Shown here: positions 1-7,498 of the stretch, one piece after another
How the letters are laid out: each line of letters begins with the position of its first letter
Position numbering within the stretch: the first letter of the stretch is position 1
Origin: Eubacterium sp.
GTDB lineage: Bacteria > Bacillota > Clostridia > Oscillospirales > Acutalibacteraceae
Assembly: GCA_022511225.1 (NCBI GenBank)
Contig: JAFLRZ010000001.1
Span: 124,001-188,000, forward strand
Reading direction: 5' to 3'
DNA: 64,000 nucleotides
The notes under the pieces: model-generated
The model's input: only the letters and a program-made list of their open reading frames with translations
Told to the model about the DNA's origin: nothing
Databases searched by the model: none
Made by a program: the position numbers and the translations under genes

Positions 1-501
1 TCCTATTCCGAAATTGCTTGCAGTTTCAACTGCGTCAATATTTGCACCGATGAAAAGAAATTCCCAACCGTACTTTTCTTTCTCGTGCTCTATCATTTCT
101 TTTACTCTTTGAGATGAATATTTACGGCTTGCGTTTTCCATTCCATCTGTCATAATAACAAACATTGTATTCTGCGGAACATCCTCAGATCTGGCATATT
201 TGTGGATATTTGCAATGTGGTGAATTGAACTACCTATTGCATCAATGAGAGCAGTACACCCTCTTACCTGATAATCATTATCAGTCAGCGGTTCAATATT
301 TCGTAAATCAACTCTGTCGTGCAGAACAAGCATTTCGTGATTGAAAAGCACTGTCGATACATAGCATTTGCCCTCCTGCTTTTTCTGCTTTTCAATCAGC
401 GAATTAAAGCCGCCAATCGTGTCACTTTCAAGTCCCGCCATTGAGCCTGAGCGATCAAGGATAAATACTAATTCTGTAATGTTGTTGTCTGTCCTTTTCA
501 T
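1..501 (-). CDS. von Willebrand factor A (vWA) domain protein, C-terminus cut by window edge
   Basis: I translated this by hand. The gene begins at the ATG at 499-501, behind a G-rich Shine-Dalgarno, and runs off the left edge, so about 167 residues are visible. The protein opens MKRTDNNITELVFILDRSGSM. The DxSxS part of the MIDAS metal site (D-R-S-G-S) is clear, and a later MTDGMEN segment fits the vWA fold. vWA domains bind a divalent metal and mediate protein-protein contacts; small cytosolic ones often act in stress or phage-response clusters. There is no signal peptide or membrane segment in the visible part. It lies about 100 bp downstream of the macrodomain gene on the same strand, within the mobile element. 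The exact function is unknown. Confidence 0.85.
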   Translation of the reverse strand, partial: MKRTDNNITELVFILDRSGSMAGLESDTIGGFNSLIEKQKKQEGKCYVSTVLFNHEMLVLHDRVDLRNIEPLTDNDYQVRGCTALIDAIGSSIHHIANIHKYARSEDVPQNTMFVIMTDGMENASRKYSSQRVKEMIEHEKEKYGWEFLFIGANIDAVETASNFGIG

Positions 502-602: not shown

Positions 603-1682
603 CTAATTCATAGAACCTAAAAGACTTTGGTCAAAGGCAAAAAGTGCCTCGTTAATTTCAAAAATATTGTAGTTATTTTGCTTTATGAAATACTCAACGA
701 TAATATCAAATTTATTACTGTGAGATAGTGCAAATCCTGCTTTCAGGAGCATTTCATTTGTTTCCAATAGTGATAATTCAAGCGCAATACAAAAAGCGAG
801 TACAGTGGGTTTGCTCGGTTTGTAATCGGGATTGGAACGAATTTTTGAGAAAAGACGCTTATCTATATTCGCCTTTTTATAGCATTCGCTGTCTTTCAAT
901 CCCTTTTCGTCAATTTTGCGAAGAAGCATTTGAGAAAAGCTTTCGTCAATCATTTCGTTGATGATATCCCCAATATCATCTGTTTCCTGTGCAGAAAACG
1001 TAGGAGCAGTGTGGCAAATGCCTTCACTCTCAAGGATAGCTTCCTCAAGTACCGCACTTTCCTGTAAATCATCGTCATCAAAGAATCTCGTGCTTGGCAG
1101 AGGCATACTTGCGCCTACGTTTGCCATTAACCTGCGGTCGTACGGTGAATGCTCGACAACGTAGTTATCGTCGATATACTCTGCTATATCAGTAAACAGC
1201 ATACTGCCTGCTGCAAGTGAGTTTTTATTGTAGACAACGATATAAACAAGCATATCGTTATGCATTAAAAACTCTGCAATGGTATCAACAGCAACCTTAA
1301 ATGCATCATTCATCGGATATCCATAAACACCACTTGAAATAAGCGGAAATGCAACAGATTCGCAATTATTCTCTTTAGCAAGAGTAAGAGAGTTTTTATA
1401 ACAGCTTTCAAGCATTTCACGCTCACCGTTATTACCACCTCTCCATTTCGGACCAACAGTATGTATCACATATTTGCAAGGCAGATTATATCCGCCTGTA
1501 ATCTTTGCTTGACCGACCTTACAACCGCCGAGTTTCATACATTTGAGCAGCAATTTTCTACCAGCAGCACGGTGTATAGCTCCGTCAACACCACCACCGC
1601 CTAACAATGTACTGTTAGCAGCATTAACAATTGCATCACATTCAACTTTGGTTATATCGTTTCTGATAATTTGTAATGGCAT
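603..1682 (-). CDS. Macrodomain protein with C-terminal helical extension (ADP-ribose binding or hydrolysis)
   Basis: This is a 359-residue protein. Residues 1-165 are a macrodomain of the YmdB/O-acetyl-ADP-ribose deacetylase type: [20 protein letters not shown] near residue 18, a VIHTVGPKW strand, and the phosphate loop SSGVYGYP. Such domains bind or hydrolyse ADP-ribose derivatives. The remaining half is unusual: a low-complexity acidic linker (about 195-245), then a helical domain containing [15 protein letters not shown] and [15 protein letters not shown], which looks like a compact helix-turn-helix-like fold seen attached to macrodomains in Firmicutes. The start is the ATG preceded by GAGGTGA. 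A consensus promoter lies directly upstream. With the downstream vWA gene it probably forms a two-gene cargo unit. The family assignment is secure; the substrate is not known. Confidence 0.85.
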
Positions 1683-1784: not shown

Positions 1785-2003
1785 TTAGATTTTAGTTTTC
1801 AGCTCTTTTAATATTTTCTTTTTATCATTTGCTGGAATTTTGAGATCATTTAGTTTTGACATAATTACTGATGCTTGAATTTCAATAATATCTTTTTGAA
1901 ATTCTCTTTGCTTATTTTCATTTGGTAAATGTACAATTATATTCAAAACATATTCTCCCCTATCAAGAAAATATATTTCAGGAACTGCTTGTCTAATAAC
2001 CAA
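1785..2003 (-). CDS. Small hypothetical protein downstream of the relaxase
   Basis: This reading frame has 72 codons from a TTG at 2001-2003, directly after in-frame stops. A better Shine-Dalgarno (AGGGGAG) lies inside it and would start translation at a TTG giving a product of about 53 residues beginning with the NIIVHLPNENK segment. The product is charged and mostly helical, with a lysine-rich end (KKKILKELKTKI). I do not recognise a family. It is the last gene before the terminator of the mobilisation unit, so it may be an accessory mobilisation protein or unrelated cargo. Confidence 0.5.
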   Translation of the reverse strand: MVIRQAVPEIYFLDRGEYVLNIIVHLPNENKQREFQKDIIEIQASVIMSKLNDLKIPANDKKKILKELKTKI

Positions 2004-2064: not shown

Positions 2065-3008
2065 TTACCAACTCATTCCATGATACTCATTGTATTCATC
2101 ATAATAATCCTCATTTGTAACTTTTAGTCCGTGCGCTATTAACTTTTCAAATTCTTCTTTACTGTGATGAGGCATCCATTTGCGGTGGCTGTTGTTTTGC
2201 ATTTCCAGATTGAACAGATTGCCTATCAGTCTGAACAAATCGTTCGATATATTTCCCTCATATGGCGTTTCATAGTTTTGGTATTCTTCTGCGATGACAC
2301 TGTAAGAACCGCCAAGTTCAAAATAAATTTCAAGATTTTCTTTTAGAAAACGCTCATCGAATAATTTGTTGTCACGGCATTTGTGATTATCGTCCGTTGT
2401 AAAAGTAATGTACTTATGATTATCCTGCCAATCAACCTTAACGCCCATTCTTCCAAGAACATATATGAAATCCTTTTTCGTTGCACTGTGTATCATTGCA
2501 TATTCAACTTTTATAAGCAGTTTGCGTTTCCATTCAGGCATATTGTATCTTGTTGCTTTTGCTTCCGTAACGGATAATCCGTACTCTTCGCATAGCTTGT
2601 TTGAGTACTTTTTTGCCTGTATCATTTCATCTCTCGTTTGATGAAATTTCTTGCCGTTTACAAAATTGACCGAGTTGAAAACTATATGATTGTGAATATG
2701 TTTTCTATCGATATGAGTTGCTACAACTGTTTGATAGTCACCAAAGTATTCTGCAAATTTTAGTCCGATTTCATGTGCGGCTTCAGGCATGATGTTATCA
2801 TCCGGACTGAATGATTGTACTACGTGATAATACTGTCTGCCGTCTGTTTTGTTGAATTGCTTCTTGACTGAGATGAATTCTTCCAAGCTGTTTCTGGCAT
2901 GCAGTTGATACCGCTGATTAATTTCTGTTCAGTCTTTTCCTTTTTCATAATATACGGAAATATATTATTCATCGGACTGCCTGAGATAACGAATTTAACG
3001 ACTGCCAT
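2065..3008 (-). pseudogene. MobA/VirD2-type relaxase, interrupted by a 1-nt frameshift
   Basis: Relaxases nick oriT and pilot the transferred strand in conjugative mobilisation. The N-terminal 41 residues (MAVVKFVISGSPMNNIFPYI, positions 3008 to 2886) are in one frame. The rest (EEFISVKKQFNKTDGRQYYH, down to a stop at 2065) is in the next frame. Restoring one T at the TT of 2885-2886 would give the continuous junction PETA-LEEFISVKKQF. The histidine triad motif HIDRKHIHNHIVFNSVNF, typical of MOB-P relaxases, is intact. The reconstructed length is about 314 residues. The mobC gene overlaps its start by 40 nt, as usual. Either the element has lost self-mobilisation or the assembly dropped one base in a short T run. 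I regard the relaxase identity as very likely and the frameshift as real in this sequence. Confidence 0.85.
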
Positions 3009-3292
3009 ATCTTCTGTACCTCCTTTTTCGTTTCAGTCAAATCAACTGCATATATTCCGCTATTGACTGCTTTTGTGATTTGATTCAGGTTGTTGCCTAT
3101 TCTGCGGAGTTCGGTTGTTAATTCTTTTAGTCCATCAATAACGACTATTTCTTTTTTTATAGCGCAATCTCGGAGGTACTCACTTACTAATTTTCCTGTT
3201 AGCAAGGCTTTGCGTTCAATCAAATCTTTTTCTTCAGGTGTTGCTCTGAACGTTAATATTTCTGTTTTGTTTTTACTTATGGTTATCACCAA
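2969..3292 (-). CDS. mobC: MobC-like relaxosome accessory protein
   Basis: This 107-residue protein has an N-terminal ribbon-helix-helix-like segment (TEILTFRATPEEKDLIERKA) and the MobC signature ELRRIGNNLNQITKAVNSG. MobC proteins bind oriT and help the relaxase open the strands. The start is ambiguous: TTG at 3290-3292 or the next codon GTG, both just behind AAAGGA. The gene overlaps the relaxase start by 40 nt and lies directly downstream of the candidate oriT. It is intact, unlike the relaxase. Confidence 0.85.
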   Translation of the reverse strand: MVITISKNKTEILTFRATPEEKDLIERKALLTGKLVSEYLRDCAIKKEIVVIDGLKELTTELRRIGNNLNQITKAVNSGIYAVDLTETKKEVQKIWQSLNSLSQAVR

Positions 3293-3360: not shown

Positions 3361-3559
3361 GAAACTAGCAATAAACGCTTTATACAACTACGAACTGTTA
3401 AACATTTTACCGCCTCCTTAAAATGAAACTTCAAAAGATACTGATTATTGTATAAAATATCTCTTTGTGTTATCATCTTAACAAGAATAGATAAAACAAA
3501 CTATGCGGGATTGTAATACGCAAAAATCCAAAAGTTTAATGACGGACAAGGGAAATGAT

Positions 3560-4531
3560 ATGTATCTATATGACGGTTTAATCAGAGACGGACTTCATAT
3601 GCGAATAGATGATAATGGGAAATTAGAAAGAGTATTATCCGTTGATGGTAAGCATATTGAACTGCCAGACGTTAATTTAGTTGACGAAATTTTAAGTATA
3701 GCAGAAACAGATGACAGCAACTACGTAATCGCAATGAATTATCTTAATACCGTATATAAGGAATTTGAAAGTACCGAAGGATTAGAAGACGGAGCTAAAG
3801 TGTTTGATAATTTTTTAAGATCGGTTGATGTCATCGTTGAGGGATTAATTGAAAGTATTCCTGTTCTCGGATATTTAATGAGACAGACAATTCAAATGAA
3901 ATGGTATGAGGAATATGAATTAACGTTTCTTGAAAAAGTTAATGGTGTTATTGATATGTTTCATCACTATTTATTTGTATCAACAGAGCTTGAATTTTTA
4001 TTAAGTGATTTATCACAAAGCAAGGAACTTGATTTTGAGAAACGATGCAATGTTTTTAAATATGGAGAAATCACCACTGCATACACTCATACGAAAAACG
4101 GATTGGAGCAGGAGTATTACATTACAACCGTTCTTGAATATTACATACTGCTTGTCAATAAATTTTTAGAAATGAATCTTAATGTTCAGCGCTGTAAGTG
4201 CTGCGGGAATTTCTTTGTTACAAAGACAAAAAGAAAAACTCTGTACTGTGACAGAGCTCTGTATAGAGGAGGAAAGACCTGTAAAGATGTTGCACCGAAA
4301 GCAATGCAGAAATATCTCGCAAAAAATGATGAAATCATTAAAGCTTACGATAAGACAAAAAATAAAATGTATAAACGAATGCAAAGGGCAGATACCTTTG
4401 GCGAAACTGAAAAATCAATCAGCTATGATGAATATGCAGATTGGCTTTTCAAGGCTCAGCAAGCGAGAAATAATTACCGTAACGGAAAGCTATCTGCAGA
4501 AAATGCGCTTAAAATAATACAAATAGATTAA
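3560..4531 (+). CDS. Zinc-finger protein, probably the DUF6076 type
   Basis: A frame opens at 3503, but the ATG at 3560 has the better Shine-Dalgarno (AAGGGA, 7 nt upstream), giving 323 residues beginning MYLYDGLIRDGLH. A C-terminal cysteine cluster CKCCGNFF...YCDRALYRGGKTC resembles a treble-clef zinc finger of the CGNR kind. It is followed by a basic helical tail (YDKTKNKMYKRMQR). The rest is mostly helical and acidic with no membrane segment. I associate this architecture with DUF6076 proteins of clostridial mobile elements; that label is from memory and unverified. The zinc finger plus basic helix suggests nucleic acid binding. The gene stands alone on the + strand, with a strong terminator behind it. 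Confidence 0.65.
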   Translation: MYLYDGLIRDGLHMRIDDNGKLERVLSVDGKHIELPDVNLVDEILSIAETDDSNYVIAMNYLNTVYKEFESTEGLEDGAKVFDNFLRSVDVIVEGLIESIPVLGYLMRQTIQMKWYEEYELTFLEKVNGVIDMFHHYLFVSTELEFLLSDLSQSKELDFEKRCNVFKYGEITTAYTHTKNGLEQEYYITTVLEYYILLVNKFLEMNLNVQRCKCCGNFFVTKTKRKTLYCDRALYRGGKTCKDVAPKAMQKYLAKNDEIIKAYDKTKNKMYKRMQRADTFGETEKSISYDEYADWLFKAQQARNNYRNGKLSAENALKIIQID

Positions 4532-4571: not shown

Positions 4572-4970
4572 CTATATTTTATCATTGAGATATTTTTCTA
4601 CTGTTTCAACAAATAACTTAGCATTTTCATATTGTTCTAAGACTTTTTCCTTACTGATAACATAAAAATCATCGTAATCGCTACTTGATCTTACATTAAA
4701 CAGTTTTGAAATAATATCAGACATTTCTGTACTGAAAAATTCAGTTTTAATATAGTTTTTTCTGAATTCAGAAATGATACCGGAATGCTTTTTTGAATCA
4801 AATCCATCTAAAGCAAGCACCGCTCTCATTGCAAGGAAAACAGAATAATATGCACGATTGGCAGCAGTTTTATAATCGCCCAATTCCAAAATTCCGGGAA
4901 TAAAAGATAATCTTTCTTTTGCGTTTTCAAGTCGTATTTTTGCTAACGCCTTTTTCTCATCATCAAGCAA
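4572..4970 (-). CDS. HEPN-domain toxin of an MNT/HEPN pair
   Basis: This 132-residue all-helical protein has the HEPN features KTAANRAYYSVFLAMRAVL near residue 35 and RSSSDYDDFYV near residue 93. The R-x3-DY segment matches the catalytic RNase motif as it appears in PF05168-type HEPN proteins. HEPN toxins cleave RNA, and the partner nucleotidyltransferase neutralises them, in studied cases by adenylylating a tyrosine near this motif. The gene follows and overlaps the nucleotidyltransferase gene by 8 nt, so the two are translationally coupled. Classification as a toxin-antitoxin system rests on family knowledge and gene order. The family fit is strong; the activity is untested. Confidence 0.85.
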   Translation of the reverse strand: MLDDEKKALAKIRLENAKERLSFIPGILELGDYKTAANRAYYSVFLAMRAVLALDGFDSKKHSGIISEFRKNYIKTEFFSTEMSDIISKLFNVRSSSDYDDFYVISKEKVLEQYENAKLFVETVEKYLNDKI

Positions 4971-5301
4971 TTCTTATCCCCTCTCTTTCAATATTAGAAT
5001 AGAAAGGTAACGTTTTCTTAAATCGGTTGAAAGTATCCTTATCTCTTAATGTGATTGACACCGTAACGTCATTATCAAGTGATAATCTACTGCTTAACAA
5101 ATTAAAAGCATTTTCATAACTTTCCAGCAAATCAACCGGACAGTCGATTCTGACCATAATATCTATATCGGACTCATCGTCGAAATCTCCACGTGCATAT
5201 GAGCCATAAAGCACGACTGCGTCGAGCTTATCTCCAAGAATATAATTTGCTTCTTTTGCTACCGCAGACGTAACGATATTTAATTGATTCTTGGTACACA
5301 T
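4963..5301 (-). CDS. MNT-type nucleotidyltransferase antitoxin
   Basis: This 112-residue minimal nucleotidyltransferase has the signature LYGSYARGDFDDESDIDIMV (residues about 33-52). It supplies the GS motif and the two metal-binding aspartates of the polymerase-beta fold. The ATG at 5299-5301 is chosen over a GTG two codons upstream because AGGAGGTG is correctly spaced for it. MNT proteins paired with HEPN proteins act as antitoxins by transferring AMP to the toxin. The gene reads away from the recombinase gene, and the two promoters share an inverted repeat. It is the first gene of the TA operon. Confidence 0.88.
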   Translation of the reverse strand: MCTKNQLNIVTSAVAKEANYILGDKLDAVVLYGSYARGDFDDESDIDIMVRIDCPVDLLESYENAFNLLSSRLSLDNDVTVSITLRDKDTFNRFKKTLPFYSNIEREGIRIA

Positions 5302-5329
5302 ATGCACACCTCCTATGCTTTCTAAATTT

Positions 5330-5439: not shown

Positions 5440-7149
5440 ATGGAAAAGGTATTTGCTATATATTCGAGGAAATCGAAGTTTACGGGCAAGGGTGAATCTG
5501 TTGAAAATCAGATTGAGATGTGCCGTGAATATCTGAGAATACATTTTGGCGAGAAAGAGGCTGAAAAAGCTGTAATATACGAGGACGAAGGATTCAGCGG
5601 AAAGAACCTTGATAGACCTCAATTTAAGGCTATGTTTGAGGATATTAAGGAAGGAAAAATATCCGCTGTGCTTTGCTATCGACTTGACCGTATCAGCCGT
5701 AACATCGGCGATTTTGCAAACCTTATTACCGAACTAACCTCTATGGGCGTTGCGTTTATTTCAATAAAGGAGCAGTTTGACACTAACTCCCCTATGGGCA
5801 GGGCGATGATGTATATTGCATCTGTTTTCTCTCAGCTTGAGCGCGAAACGATAGCTGAACGTATTCGTGATAATCTGCACGAGCTTTCAAAAACAGGCAG
5901 ATGGCTTGGTGGTGTTACGCCTACCGGTTACACATCTGTTGGCGAAACGAGTATGAACATAAACGGAAAAACAAAGAAGGCATTTCACCTTGCTGTTAAG
6001 GAAGATGAAATGCAAATTGTTGAATTGATATTCAATTTGTTTCTTGAACATAATTCATTGACAGCATGCGAAAGCTATCTGCTTGCTCACAATTACAAAA
6101 CGAAAAACGGCAGAGATTTTACACGATTTTCTATCCGTGGAATTCTCACTAATCCCGTTTATATAATTGCTGACAGTGATGCGTTTGAATATTTTAAAAA
6201 CTCAAATGTTGATTTGTATTCTGACGAAAATGAGTTTGACGGCACACACGGAATGATGGTGTATAACCGCACCTTGCAGGAACAAGGCAAGGCTACCAAA
6301 ATCAGACCTATGGAGGAATGGATTGTTGCTGTCGGCAAGCACCAAGGCTTTATAAATGGCAAGGATTGGATTAAAGTTCAAAGAATGCTTGATAGTAACA
6401 AATCGAAAGCATATCGCAAACCGAAAAGTCACACTGCCCTGTTATCAGGTATTTTAAAATGCGAATGCGGTGAATTTATGCGTCCGCATATGACTACACG
6501 AATTAACAAAGACGGCGAATACACCTATTATTATTCCTGCACTATGAAACTGCGTAGTAAAGGCAGTCGTTGCAACAATAAAAATATTAACGGCAACGAA
6601 ATAGACAAAGAGGTCATTGCTGCTGTTAAGGCACTTGCAAACAATGGTGATGATTATTTTGAGTCACTGAAATCTGCTTTGAGTGATAGCAAAATCAAAA
6701 CTGAAAACATTAGTAATGAGCAAGCAAGACTTGATAGTGAAATTGAGAAAAAAGAAAAGGAAATTGAAACACTTGTAAATAATCTTGCTACATCAAGCGG
6801 AACAGGTGCAGAAAAATACATACTTGATAAAATCAACACTCTAAGTAACGAGATTGAAAAAATAAAATCACAAATGAACACACTTTCAAAAGAAAGTGAA
6901 AATGAACTGAATTTAACAGAAAGCATTGATTTGATGAAAGATATGCTAAAATCATTTTCTGTTACCGTTGACAATATGACTATTGAGCAGAAAAGGCAGA
7001 CAATTCGCACATTTGTAAAAGAAGTTATATGGGACGGAAAAAACGCACATATCGTATTTTTTGGCTCTGATTATGAATATCCATTCAAAAAAGCTGAAAT
7101 GCTTGCTGATAACGATAATTTGTATCCGATTGGTGAGGATAGCAAATGA
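5440..7149 (+). CDS. Large serine recombinase of the sigK-intervening element (SpoIVCA-like)
   Basis: This 569-residue recombinase has a resolvase-type catalytic domain (residues 1-150) with the nucleophile in IYSRKS and the arginine motif YRLDRISRNIGDF. A recombinase DNA-binding domain follows (LSKTGRWLGGVTPTGY onward). Next come a zinc ribbon with cysteines in CECGEFM, YYSC and CNNK (about 345-385), and a long coiled coil (430-510) typical of phage/skin-type large serine integrases. Its stop codon TGA (7147-7149) is inside the AATGA pentamer at the junction with the sigK 3' half. In B. subtilis the equivalent enzyme SpoIVCA excises skin in the mother cell to rebuild sigK. The same role is inferred here from position. 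The catalytic residues look intact. Confidence 0.92.
   Translation: MEKVFAIYSRKSKFTGKGESVENQIEMCREYLRIHFGEKEAEKAVIYEDEGFSGKNLDRPQFKAMFEDIKEGKISAVLCYRLDRISRNIGDFANLITELTSMGVAFISIKEQFDTNSPMGRAMMYIASVFSQLERETIAERIRDNLHELSKTGRWLGGVTPTGYTSVGETSMNINGKTKKAFHLAVKEDEMQIVELIFNLFLEHNSLTACESYLLAHNYKTKNGRDFTRFSIRGILTNPVYIIADSDAFEYFKNSNVDLYSDENEFDGTHGMMVYNRTLQEQGKATKIRPMEEWIVAVGKHQGFINGKDWIKVQRMLDSNKSKAYRKPKSHTALLSGILKCECGEFMRPHMTTRINKDGEYTYYYSCTMKLRSKGSRCNNKNINGNEIDKEVIAAVKALANNGDDYFESLKSALSDSKIKTENISNEQARLDSEIEKKEKEIETLVNNLATSSGTGAEKYILDKINTLSNEIEKIKSQMNTLSKESENELNLTESIDLMKDMLKSFSVTVDNMTIEQKRQTIRTFVKEVIWDGKNAHIVFFGSDYEYPFKKAEMLADNDNLYPIGEDSK
7145..7149 (+). other. Recombination core AATGA at the element/sigK junction
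   Basis: The pentamer AATGA encodes Asn and the start of the Glu codon in the SigK segment NEILMH. It also supplies the last two bases of the final Lys codon and the stop of the recombinase. As I recall, AATGA is the repeated pentamer at the skin borders in B. subtilis. The left copy is outside the window, so the assignment is inference. Confidence 0.75.
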
Positions 7150-7498
7150 AATACTGATGCATTTTAGGAGTTTGAAGAAAGGAGCTAACGACTTATATCT
7201 GAATGACACGCTTGAAATTGACAAGGACGGAAATCCGCTGACTATCGAGGACACTATCAGCAGCGAGAGTGATTTGGCAGAAAATCTTGAAACAAAGCTC
7301 AGGTGGGAAAAGGTTGCAAAAATAATTGAAAACCTCGATGATGAGCGTGAAAAAGAGATAATAATTCTTCGCTACGGGCTGAATAATAAAAGACCTCTGA
7401 CACAACGCGAGGTTGCGCAGAGGCTGAATATAAGCCGAAGCTACGTATCAAGAATCGAAAAAAAAGTAATTACAGATATAAAAAGTAAGGTTGACTAA
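7145..7498 (+). CDS. sigK: 3' half of split sigK (sporulation sigma factor K, C-terminal part)
   Basis: From the junction the frame reads NEILMHFRSLKKGANDLYLN and continues to a stop at 7498, about 117 residues. It contains the end of sigma region 2, region 3 and region 4 with the DNA-binding helix-turn-helix TQREVAQRLNISRSYVSRIE. The LKK after NEILMxxR, RYGLNN and SRSYVSRIEKK match SigK better than SigE. The N-terminal half, with the core-binding part of region 2, is absent from the window. Any upstream ATG lies inside the recombinase gene, so there is no start signal for this fragment alone. Function would require excision of the element, joining this to a 5' half left of the window. Permanent inactivation is possible if the left half is missing. 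Confidence 0.9.
   Translation, partial: NEILMHFRSLKKGANDLYLNDTLEIDKDGNPLTIEDTISSESDLAENLETKLRWEKVAKIIENLDDEREKEIIILRYGLNNKRPLTQREVAQRLNISRSYVSRIEKKVITDIKSKVD

Follow-up and report, generated by a model that had tools for sequence, protein, structure and literature searches.

A 28.85-kb skin-type island splits sigK in an uncultured clostridial bacterium and encodes a recombinase that probably rebuilds the gene

Interruption of the gene for sigma-K has been described in clostridia as an exception (PMC5025042). The skin element of Clostridioides difficile encodes a constitutively produced recombinase, and a separate excision factor of 72 amino acids (aa) is placed under the control of sigma-E and SpoIIID; the skin elements of C. 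difficile and Bacillus subtilis occupy different sites in sigK (PMC5025042). Skr, the excision factor of the B. subtilis element, has 64 aa (PMC6957869), and PMC13141910 speaks of a core of five nucleotides. So far, sigma-K interruption has mostly been regarded as a prophage matter; the insertions reported below are often of a non-phage nature and occur in many families. Here we analyze a stretch of 64,000 nucleotides (the window, C1:124001-188000 of genome G000) from an uncultured Clostridia bacterium with a genome of 2.2 Mb, 98.65% complete. The window holds the right end of a mobile island which splits sigK. The identity of this element as a skin-type island is real and well supported. That its recombinase, together with a small factor, rebuilds sigK during sporulation we regard as probable.

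The two halves of sigK are located on the same contig and the same strand. According to the original prediction, which saw the window alone, a large serine recombinase gene ends inside the pentamer AATGA, the C-terminal part of a SigK-type factor starts from this very pentamer, and the 5' half lies to the left on the + strand. All three statements hold. The recombinase stop codon TGA (7147-7149) is contained in AATGA (7145-7149). The bases at this position, GCA AAT GAA ATA CTG ATG, read A-NEILM, and the frame remains open to 7498; from NEILMH to the stop codon it is the C-terminal part of SigK (window 7145-7498, +, equal to C1:131145-131498). A whole-genome search for sigma-70 region 2 located the 5' half outside the window at C1:101943-102311 (+); the match was to a 125-aa frame (C1:102120-102305, +). 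It is the N-terminal part of SigK, terminating with RCIEN followed by TKIT*, and its hydrophobic leader, MFSAILSAFAANMLYFILHIQ, resembles a pro-sequence as judged by eye. The halves are separated by 28.85 kb, and the island between them comprises 28,851 bases (C1:102297-131147), well in line with a predicted minimum of 7.1 kb. When the flanks are joined at AAAT the result, YASRCIENEILMHFRSLKK, is in frame (RCIENEILMHF) and matches the intact sigK of relatives. The break thus falls at RCIE|NEILMH as foreseen, which we take to be the split point of B. subtilis sigK. No intact sigK was found elsewhere in this genome, again as anticipated; the next matches are paralogs with 37% (C-half) and 51% (N-half) identity. 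SpoIIID is present above its curated cut-off, and an M50 peptidase is compatible with SpoIVFB.

A search of 80 genomes of the genus shows how sigK is otherwise organized. The SigK 3' half is matched in 75 of them (E 1e-15), in 70 at an identity of at least 55%; the other five have paralogs only. Apart from G000, 69 genomes match this segment at 56-87% identity. In 56 of the 70, sigK is a single uninterrupted frame, stop-free over at least 222 aa. A recombinase gene abuts the sigK 3' half in 9/80 genomes, and these recombinases form two distinct groups: group A (G000, G007, G033, G023, G037 and G042; 65-93% identical to that of G000) and group B (G005, G008 and G072; 46-47% identical). In none of these nine does a stop occur inside the match of either sigK half. 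G038, in which the left border alone is available, was taken as a tenth genome with interrupted sigK. Five genomes did not enter the count, namely G025, G027, G054, G030 (its contigs end at the core) and the decayed G049. Groups A and B do not cluster on a quick tree, which warns of long branches near group B; therefore, the sigK site was probably taken at least twice within the genus. Cargo differs between islands. The G033 island of 34 kb carries a rhamnose isomerase, a rhamnosidase and enzymes of families GH1, 2, 3, 32 and 43 in place of the type VII secretion-like locus of G000, and both islands have a left helix-turn-helix (HTH) gene, a small gene, a relaxase, a DUF6076-like gene and the recombinase in common. 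The complete group B islands (G072, G008) are about 8 kb long.

Three loci of the genus are of a different kind. G007 has a second group A recombinase copy (L130, G007:C13:18881-20623), inserted at a GATAGAAAT site within another host gene. In the decayed G049 locus (L139-L141, G049:C30:22397-62807) a truncated recombinase lies beside one sigK 3' copy, and the sigK 5' half is fused to a second 3' copy devoid of the NEILMHF segment. Contigs C73 and C8 of G030 (L142 end, L143 start) both stop exactly at the AAATG core of sigK, perhaps because the sample contained sigK in both its joined and its split form.

The recombinase of G000 has resolvase, recombinase and zinc-ribbon domains (Pfam), is free of stops and shares 86-94% identity with five copies in four other genomes of the genus. 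The same genome has nine more matches to recombinase domains, on C7, C12, C14, C15, C32, C34 and C47. A comparison of the island borders, GAAAAT|ACTAAG on the left and GCAAAT|GAAATA on the right, reveals AAAT as the common string. The proposal of AATGA, presumably the core of B. subtilis skin, as attachment core was correct insofar as the exchange lies inside this pentamer, yet AATGA is present at the right border only and was rejected as a shared core because the left border reads AAATACT. The position of the crossover is suggested by relatives. Three group B islands have the left border ATAGAAAA|AGC and the right border GCGAAT|GA; compared with the intact ATAGAAAATGAA, agreement extends through base 8 on the left and begins with base 7 on the right, and therefore AA (bases 7-8) would be the common overlap. 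Large serine recombinases use a 2-base overlap. Excision is predicted to leave both reading frames intact, as originally claimed: the joined sigK is in frame, and in the predicted circle, with its junction assembled from sequence, the recombinase would end with EDSKY*. In relatives, the ends of the islands form an inverted repeat around the core. In a comparison which covered 11 islands outside group B, 17/20 positions agreed in L229, 14/20 in G023, 12/20 in G033 and 9/20 in this copy.

Beyond the genus, recombinase relatives from named genomes tell the same story. We analyzed the best 80 of 485, counting abutment by alignment ends. Among these 80, 68 abut a sigK 3' half, two a reversed sigK 5' half, four lie at a contig end and six elsewhere. 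The two islands with the recombinase end on a reversed 5' half, thus inverted, are L169 (2400-2800) and L171 (11700-11900) and originate from two metagenome-assembled genomes of different projects. The core of the 68 reads AAT|GA in 51 and AAC|GA in 17. The notion that the core supplies the recombinase stop codon, true for this locus, is consequently not general: the AAC|GA relatives have no stop codon in the core, and their recombinase frames continue past the border. The best 80 include recombinases from Oscillospiraceae, Lachnospiraceae, Defluviitaleaceae and Sporomusa. Both sigK halves were matched around islands in named genomes of Lacrimispora, Massilioclostridium coli and Clostridium viride, and the eleven islands whose locus contains both halves have lengths of 4.2-11.5 kb. 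The cargo that was sampled comprises an alpha-galactosidase with a NiFe hydrogenase (L195), an alpha-galactosidase (L215), pantothenate synthesis (L198), HypF (L231), a rolling-circle-type replication protein (L232) and helicase/restriction-like genes upstream of the recombinase (L176). Near-identical islands are found in different genera; L176 and L185, from Anaeromassilibacillus and a Ruminococcaceae strain, share 94% identity across 10.7 kb. In an even draw of 391 genomes from the class, a strict recombinase-sigK junction pattern was present in 13 (reversed control, 3/391). Split sigK is thus still a minority state, both in the class and, with 9/80, in the genus.

A few loci in this wider set deserve a separate mention. 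Metabolic cargo, namely NiFe hydrogenase, alpha-galactosidase or HypF, is found in islands of Lacrimispora and of Clostridium sp. Marseille-P2415 (L195, L231; L206 by eye). It is reminiscent of the heterocyst excision elements of cyanobacteria, which carry metabolic genes. A sigK-abutting recombinase is present in Faecalibacterium prausnitzii APC923/61-1 (L181), a species usually held to be non-sporulating. Three C. difficile 'plasmid' records of about 24 kb (L245, L249 NZ_CP149669.1; H32-H34) encode a recombinase about 42% identical to that of G000. The record that was opened is circular, carries a large ethanolamine-utilization (eut) cluster and looks like an excised chromosomal island; the eut cluster of C. 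difficile is normally chromosomal.

A second gene accompanies the split. A profile whose seeds were picked by eye in six islands served to scan 111 loci for a small gene of about 53 codons. It produced 33 matches in 31 distinct loci and covered 17/17 of the sigK islands complete in sequence, a figure which is partly circular because the profile seeds come from these islands. Within the genus the small gene occurs in 8/80 genomes, all with interrupted sigK, i.e., in 8/10 interrupted and in 0/56 intact-sigK genomes (Fisher p 8e-9). It was not detected in G007 and G037, both of which are fragmented at the island. Across the 391 class genomes the profile matched 15, seven of which are common with the junction-pattern genomes where about 0.5 would be expected by chance. 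No match was obtained in the C. difficile eut circle, an R. albus plasmid, a Terrisporobacter phage and a P. sordellii plasmid stretch. In G000 the 53-aa protein is basic (pI 9.6).

The region upstream of the small gene frequently has a sigma-E-like pattern. Five promoter patterns were tried in all; the conclusion rests on the broad one, ATA-N15-18-[ACG]ATA[TC]NNT upstream of the start. It is found in 17/31 rows, and in 17/24 after collapsing near-identical rows, the difference arising because the pattern is missing from every one of the seven Lacrimispora-type rows that were dropped; 12 of the 17 have ACA in the spacer. Controls gave 65/961 for open reading frames (ORFs), 10/73 for recombinase genes and about 1/31 for dinucleotide shuffles, and the sigK promoters of the genus have the pattern in 9/35 (shuffled 2.3). 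The strict CATA-CATA pattern is present in 10/24 small genes, 2/35 genus sigK genes, 9/73 recombinase genes and 23/961 controls; the respective counts are 13/24, 7/35, 5/73 and 51/961 for a SpoIIID-like box plus -10, and 10/24, 4/35, 1/73 and 11/961 for a tighter SpoIIID-like box. A pattern defined post hoc fits 16/31 small genes (shuffled 0.65) and 0/73 recombinases. The promoter of the recombinase gene as the sporulation switch is not favored, its 10/73 against 65/961 in controls corresponding to p 0.035. We propose the 53-aa protein as candidate excision factor because of its frequent sigma-E-like promoter and, within the genus, its confinement to genomes with split sigK.

These observations can be combined in a scheme. 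A site-specific mobile island interrupts sigK at its N-E codons. As long as the cells grow, the gene would stay split and no sigma-K would be made. During sporulation a small island-encoded factor, the best candidate being the 53-aa protein, would turn the recombinase to the excision direction. The recombinase would then join attL and attR via the AA overlap; in the mother cell sigK would be rebuilt and the island released as a circle, whereas the forespore would retain the island, which would thus be inherited. Probably, then, the island's own recombinase excises it precisely in the dying mother cell and lets the spore be finished. The module of sigK, recombinase and small gene is the conserved part, whereas the type VII secretion-like locus and the mobilization region, which form the cargo here, belong to the exchangeable part. 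A wider proposition, evenly balanced in our judgment, takes all of the following together: sigK is a standing docking site from Clostridia into Negativicutes, served by a dedicated recombinase clade; one family of excision factors of about 53 aa times all islands, and its gene shares the mother-cell promoter type of sigK; and swappable non-phage cargo (secretion-like, sugar use, hydrogenase, pantothenate synthesis, defense-like) moves between species.

The cargo of the island differs from the defective prophage of B. subtilis skin, as the original prediction had stated, and it is richer than was apparent from the right end, with a tyrosine integrase and a secretion-like locus in addition. From the left border, the order is: a protein with two HTH domains, a PP2C phosphatase, several Ser/Thr kinases, one of which is split into two frames, a pair of CHAP-domain proteins, proteins of WXG100 size and a YukD-like protein, followed by an ATPase of 1513 aa (FHA/FtsK-SpoIIIE), two proteins with BspA-type repeats, a further kinase and the tyrosine integrase. 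The right end consists of a von Willebrand A-like protein, a macrodomain protein, the 53-aa protein, the relaxase, MobC, DUF6076, the HEPN/MNT pair and the recombinase (Table 1). One of the two CHAP-domain proteins has a WXG100-like N-terminus, both matches being below cut-off. The ATPase (FtsK_SpoIIIE with FHA, E 1e-56), several proteins of WXG100 size, two of which exceed the Pfam cut-off (E 1.6e-12 and 9e-9), and the YukD-like protein (E 5.5e-7) occur together, as they do in type VII secretion loci. We use the term type VII secretion-like because no EssA, EssB or EsaA family was matched in the 20 island proteins scanned with Pfam (for the ATPase, among the best 25 of 31 families); kinases and PP2C are present instead. 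The ATPase is matched in 15/80 genomes of the genus, this one included; the other 14 matches reach only 31-38% identity, and therefore this cargo is not a genus-wide system. The relaxase gene is disrupted, its pieces matching the G033 homolog, an open frame of 316 aa, over residues 1-41 in one frame and 38-316 in another. In the G033 island, the corresponding place is occupied by a partial homolog of the DUF6076 protein (44% over 148 aa). Phage structural genes (capsid, portal, terminase, tail) were absent from 30 island proteins scanned with Pfam and from 10 scanned with PHROGs. The PHROGs matches are to integrases and regulators, plus two weak side matches with tail names, one on the coiled coil of the recombinase (E 4e-5) and one on a BspA-type protein (E 0.005). 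A prophage identity was rejected for this island on these grounds.

Table 1. Features at the right end of the island (window positions)
Feature	Position	Strand	Remarks
von Willebrand A-like protein, 5' part	1-501	-	PF05762 E 1.3e-4, below curated cut-off; gene passes the left edge of the window
Macrodomain protein	603-1682	-	PF01661 E 8.9e-48
53-aa protein resembling recombination directionality factors (RDFs), TTG start, proposed excision factor	1785-1946	-	profile family of sigK islands
MobA/VirD2-type relaxase gene, disrupted	2065-3008	-	PF03432 E 3.1e-34 (longer piece)
MobC/NikA-like mobilization protein	2969-3292	-	PF21983 E 3.8e-23, PF05713 E 1.6e-12
DUF6076 protein	3503-4531	+	PF19553 E 1.2e-13
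HEPN protein of HEPN/MNT toxin-antitoxin-like pair	4572-4970	-	PF05168 E 6.4e-19
MNT nucleotidyltransferase of HEPN/MNT pair	4963-5307	-	PF01909 E 2.4e-9
Large serine recombinase	5440-7149	+	569 aa; PF00239 E 1.4e-35, PF07508 E 7.6e-19, PF13408 E 2.3e-12
Right arm of inferred attP	7119-7143	+	inside recombinase gene end; inverted repeat with island left end
AAAT common to both borders	7144-7147	+	AA (7145-7146) inferred as crossover dinucleotide by comparing intact sigK with the borders in G000, group A and group B

Several observations weigh against developmental excision as outlined, some of them specifically for this copy. The inverted repeat is marginal here (shuffled P 0.04) and the left arm beside the core deviates, reading ACTAAGA where relatives have GCTATAC; therefore, excision of this copy could be impaired. 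This arm, together with the two-frame relaxase, which is not the intact gene of an integrative and mobilizable element, weakens the claim that this copy moves between cells. Neither an excised circle nor a rebuilt sigK came to light: a pattern for the group A attP junction had 0 matches in viral_contigs, genome_contigs and 152 loci, and the corresponding group B pattern had 0 matches in viral_contigs. The 53-aa protein matches no Pfam or NCBIfam family above cut-off, and the profile search found no small gene at the decayed G049 locus. The pattern matches for the small genes of G000 and G023 overlie the ribosome-binding site and are not credible, and the aligned promoter of the G000 small gene has a deviant -35. 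The promoter pattern was partly shaped by inspecting the sequences on which it was tested, and the tested set is richer in AT (GC 37%) than the control ORFs (GC 41%). RDF sequences are very diverse (PMC5025042), and this would leave room for a factor other than the 53-aa protein: the two-HTH protein, or the recombinase alone, might set the direction. Both recombinase groups have a two-HTH gene beside the left border, and by eye this also applies to L201, L227 and L232. Against this, compact islands such as L215 and L195 have no HTH gene at the left end (by eye) but do have the small gene, whose small size and frequent sigma-E-like promoter fit known skin RDFs, so that we view this alternative as doubtful.

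Could the element be an ordinary integrative and mobilizable island for which sigK is just an attachment site, excision being rare or induced by transfer and the carriers losing sporulation? The relaxase and MobC genes, the near-identity of L176 and L185 across genera, the second recombinase copy of G007 in a gene other than sigK, and two distinct recombinase groups at sigK in one genus would all fit. It is nevertheless unlikely. The sigK halves of the nine interrupted genomes have stayed free of stops, only the decayed G049 being damaged, a sigma-E-like pattern precedes the small island gene, and both halves also flank islands in Lacrimispora, Massilioclostridium coli and Clostridium viride. 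A dead copy in this genome, the fossil of an insertion into a lineage which no longer sporulates, is unlikely as well. The broken relaxase, the degenerate left arm, the cargo kinase in two frames, and the truncated recombinase and damaged sigK of the related G049 are what a fossil would show; an open recombinase frame so similar to its relatives, two open sigK halves and SpoIIID above the curated cut-off speak against it. We thus favor an excisable skin-type island. Should excision be confirmed, these bacteria would need a mobile element in order to form spores, their terminal mother cells would lose a secretion-like or metabolic island, and developmental excision systems could be sought and tested genome-wide by means of a small gene family. 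If sigK is indeed a docking site, spore development tolerates and preserves islands. The sporulation scoring of metagenome-assembled genomes, where it counts sigK as missing or broken, would need correction. A sigK-dedicated recombinase clade, an unnamed small family and swappable cargo are together more interesting than a single case.

How does this island compare with described systems? We found no title or abstract opening which ties sigK islands to type VII secretion or mobilizable islands, many subscription papers being outside the coverage of this search. A recombinase, a relaxase, MobC and exchangeable cargo are shared with integrative and mobilizable elements; here, in contrast, a developmental gene is the target of insertion, this copy has a broken relaxase and transfer is putative. 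The sigK elements of Clostridium tetani and of Alicyclobacillus phage MMB025 are likewise serine-recombinase insertions in sigK, yet they are described as real prophages with structural genes (PMC5553647, PMC13141910), and the MMB025 recombinase, for which the reported core is TCTC (PMC13141910), is only 26% identical to that of G000. The gin element in gerE of Bacillus cereus is also of a non-phage nature, interrupts a gene for sporulation and has GirX (42 aa) as its small factor; it differs by its target, by having three recombinases and by expression of the recombinase at sporulation (PMC5595907).

The skin of B. subtilis, with SpoIVCA and Skr, shares the split sigK, a large serine recombinase, a short core and a small excision factor, here a candidate, as well as the pro-sequence-like SigK N-terminus (by eye). 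AATGA at both borders is presumably a B. subtilis detail which other skin elements lack; in the present island AAAT is shared. Further, the recombinase gene here adjoins the 3' half co-directionally and overlaps the attachment site. B. subtilis skin is a 48-kb prophage-like region (PMC13141910) whereas this island carries secretion-like and mobilization genes, and skr overlaps spoIVCA (PMC6957869) whereas the genes for the 53-aa protein and the recombinase do not overlap. The skin of C. difficile differs in its opposite orientation, in a sigK without pro-sequence and in a site other than that of B. subtilis (PMC5025042); the pI of CD1234 is 5.5 (PMC5025042), that of the 53-aa protein 9.6. Its logic, a recombinase (CD1231) and a separate directionality factor (CD1234) under sigma-E and SpoIIID (PMC5025042), is the one proposed here.

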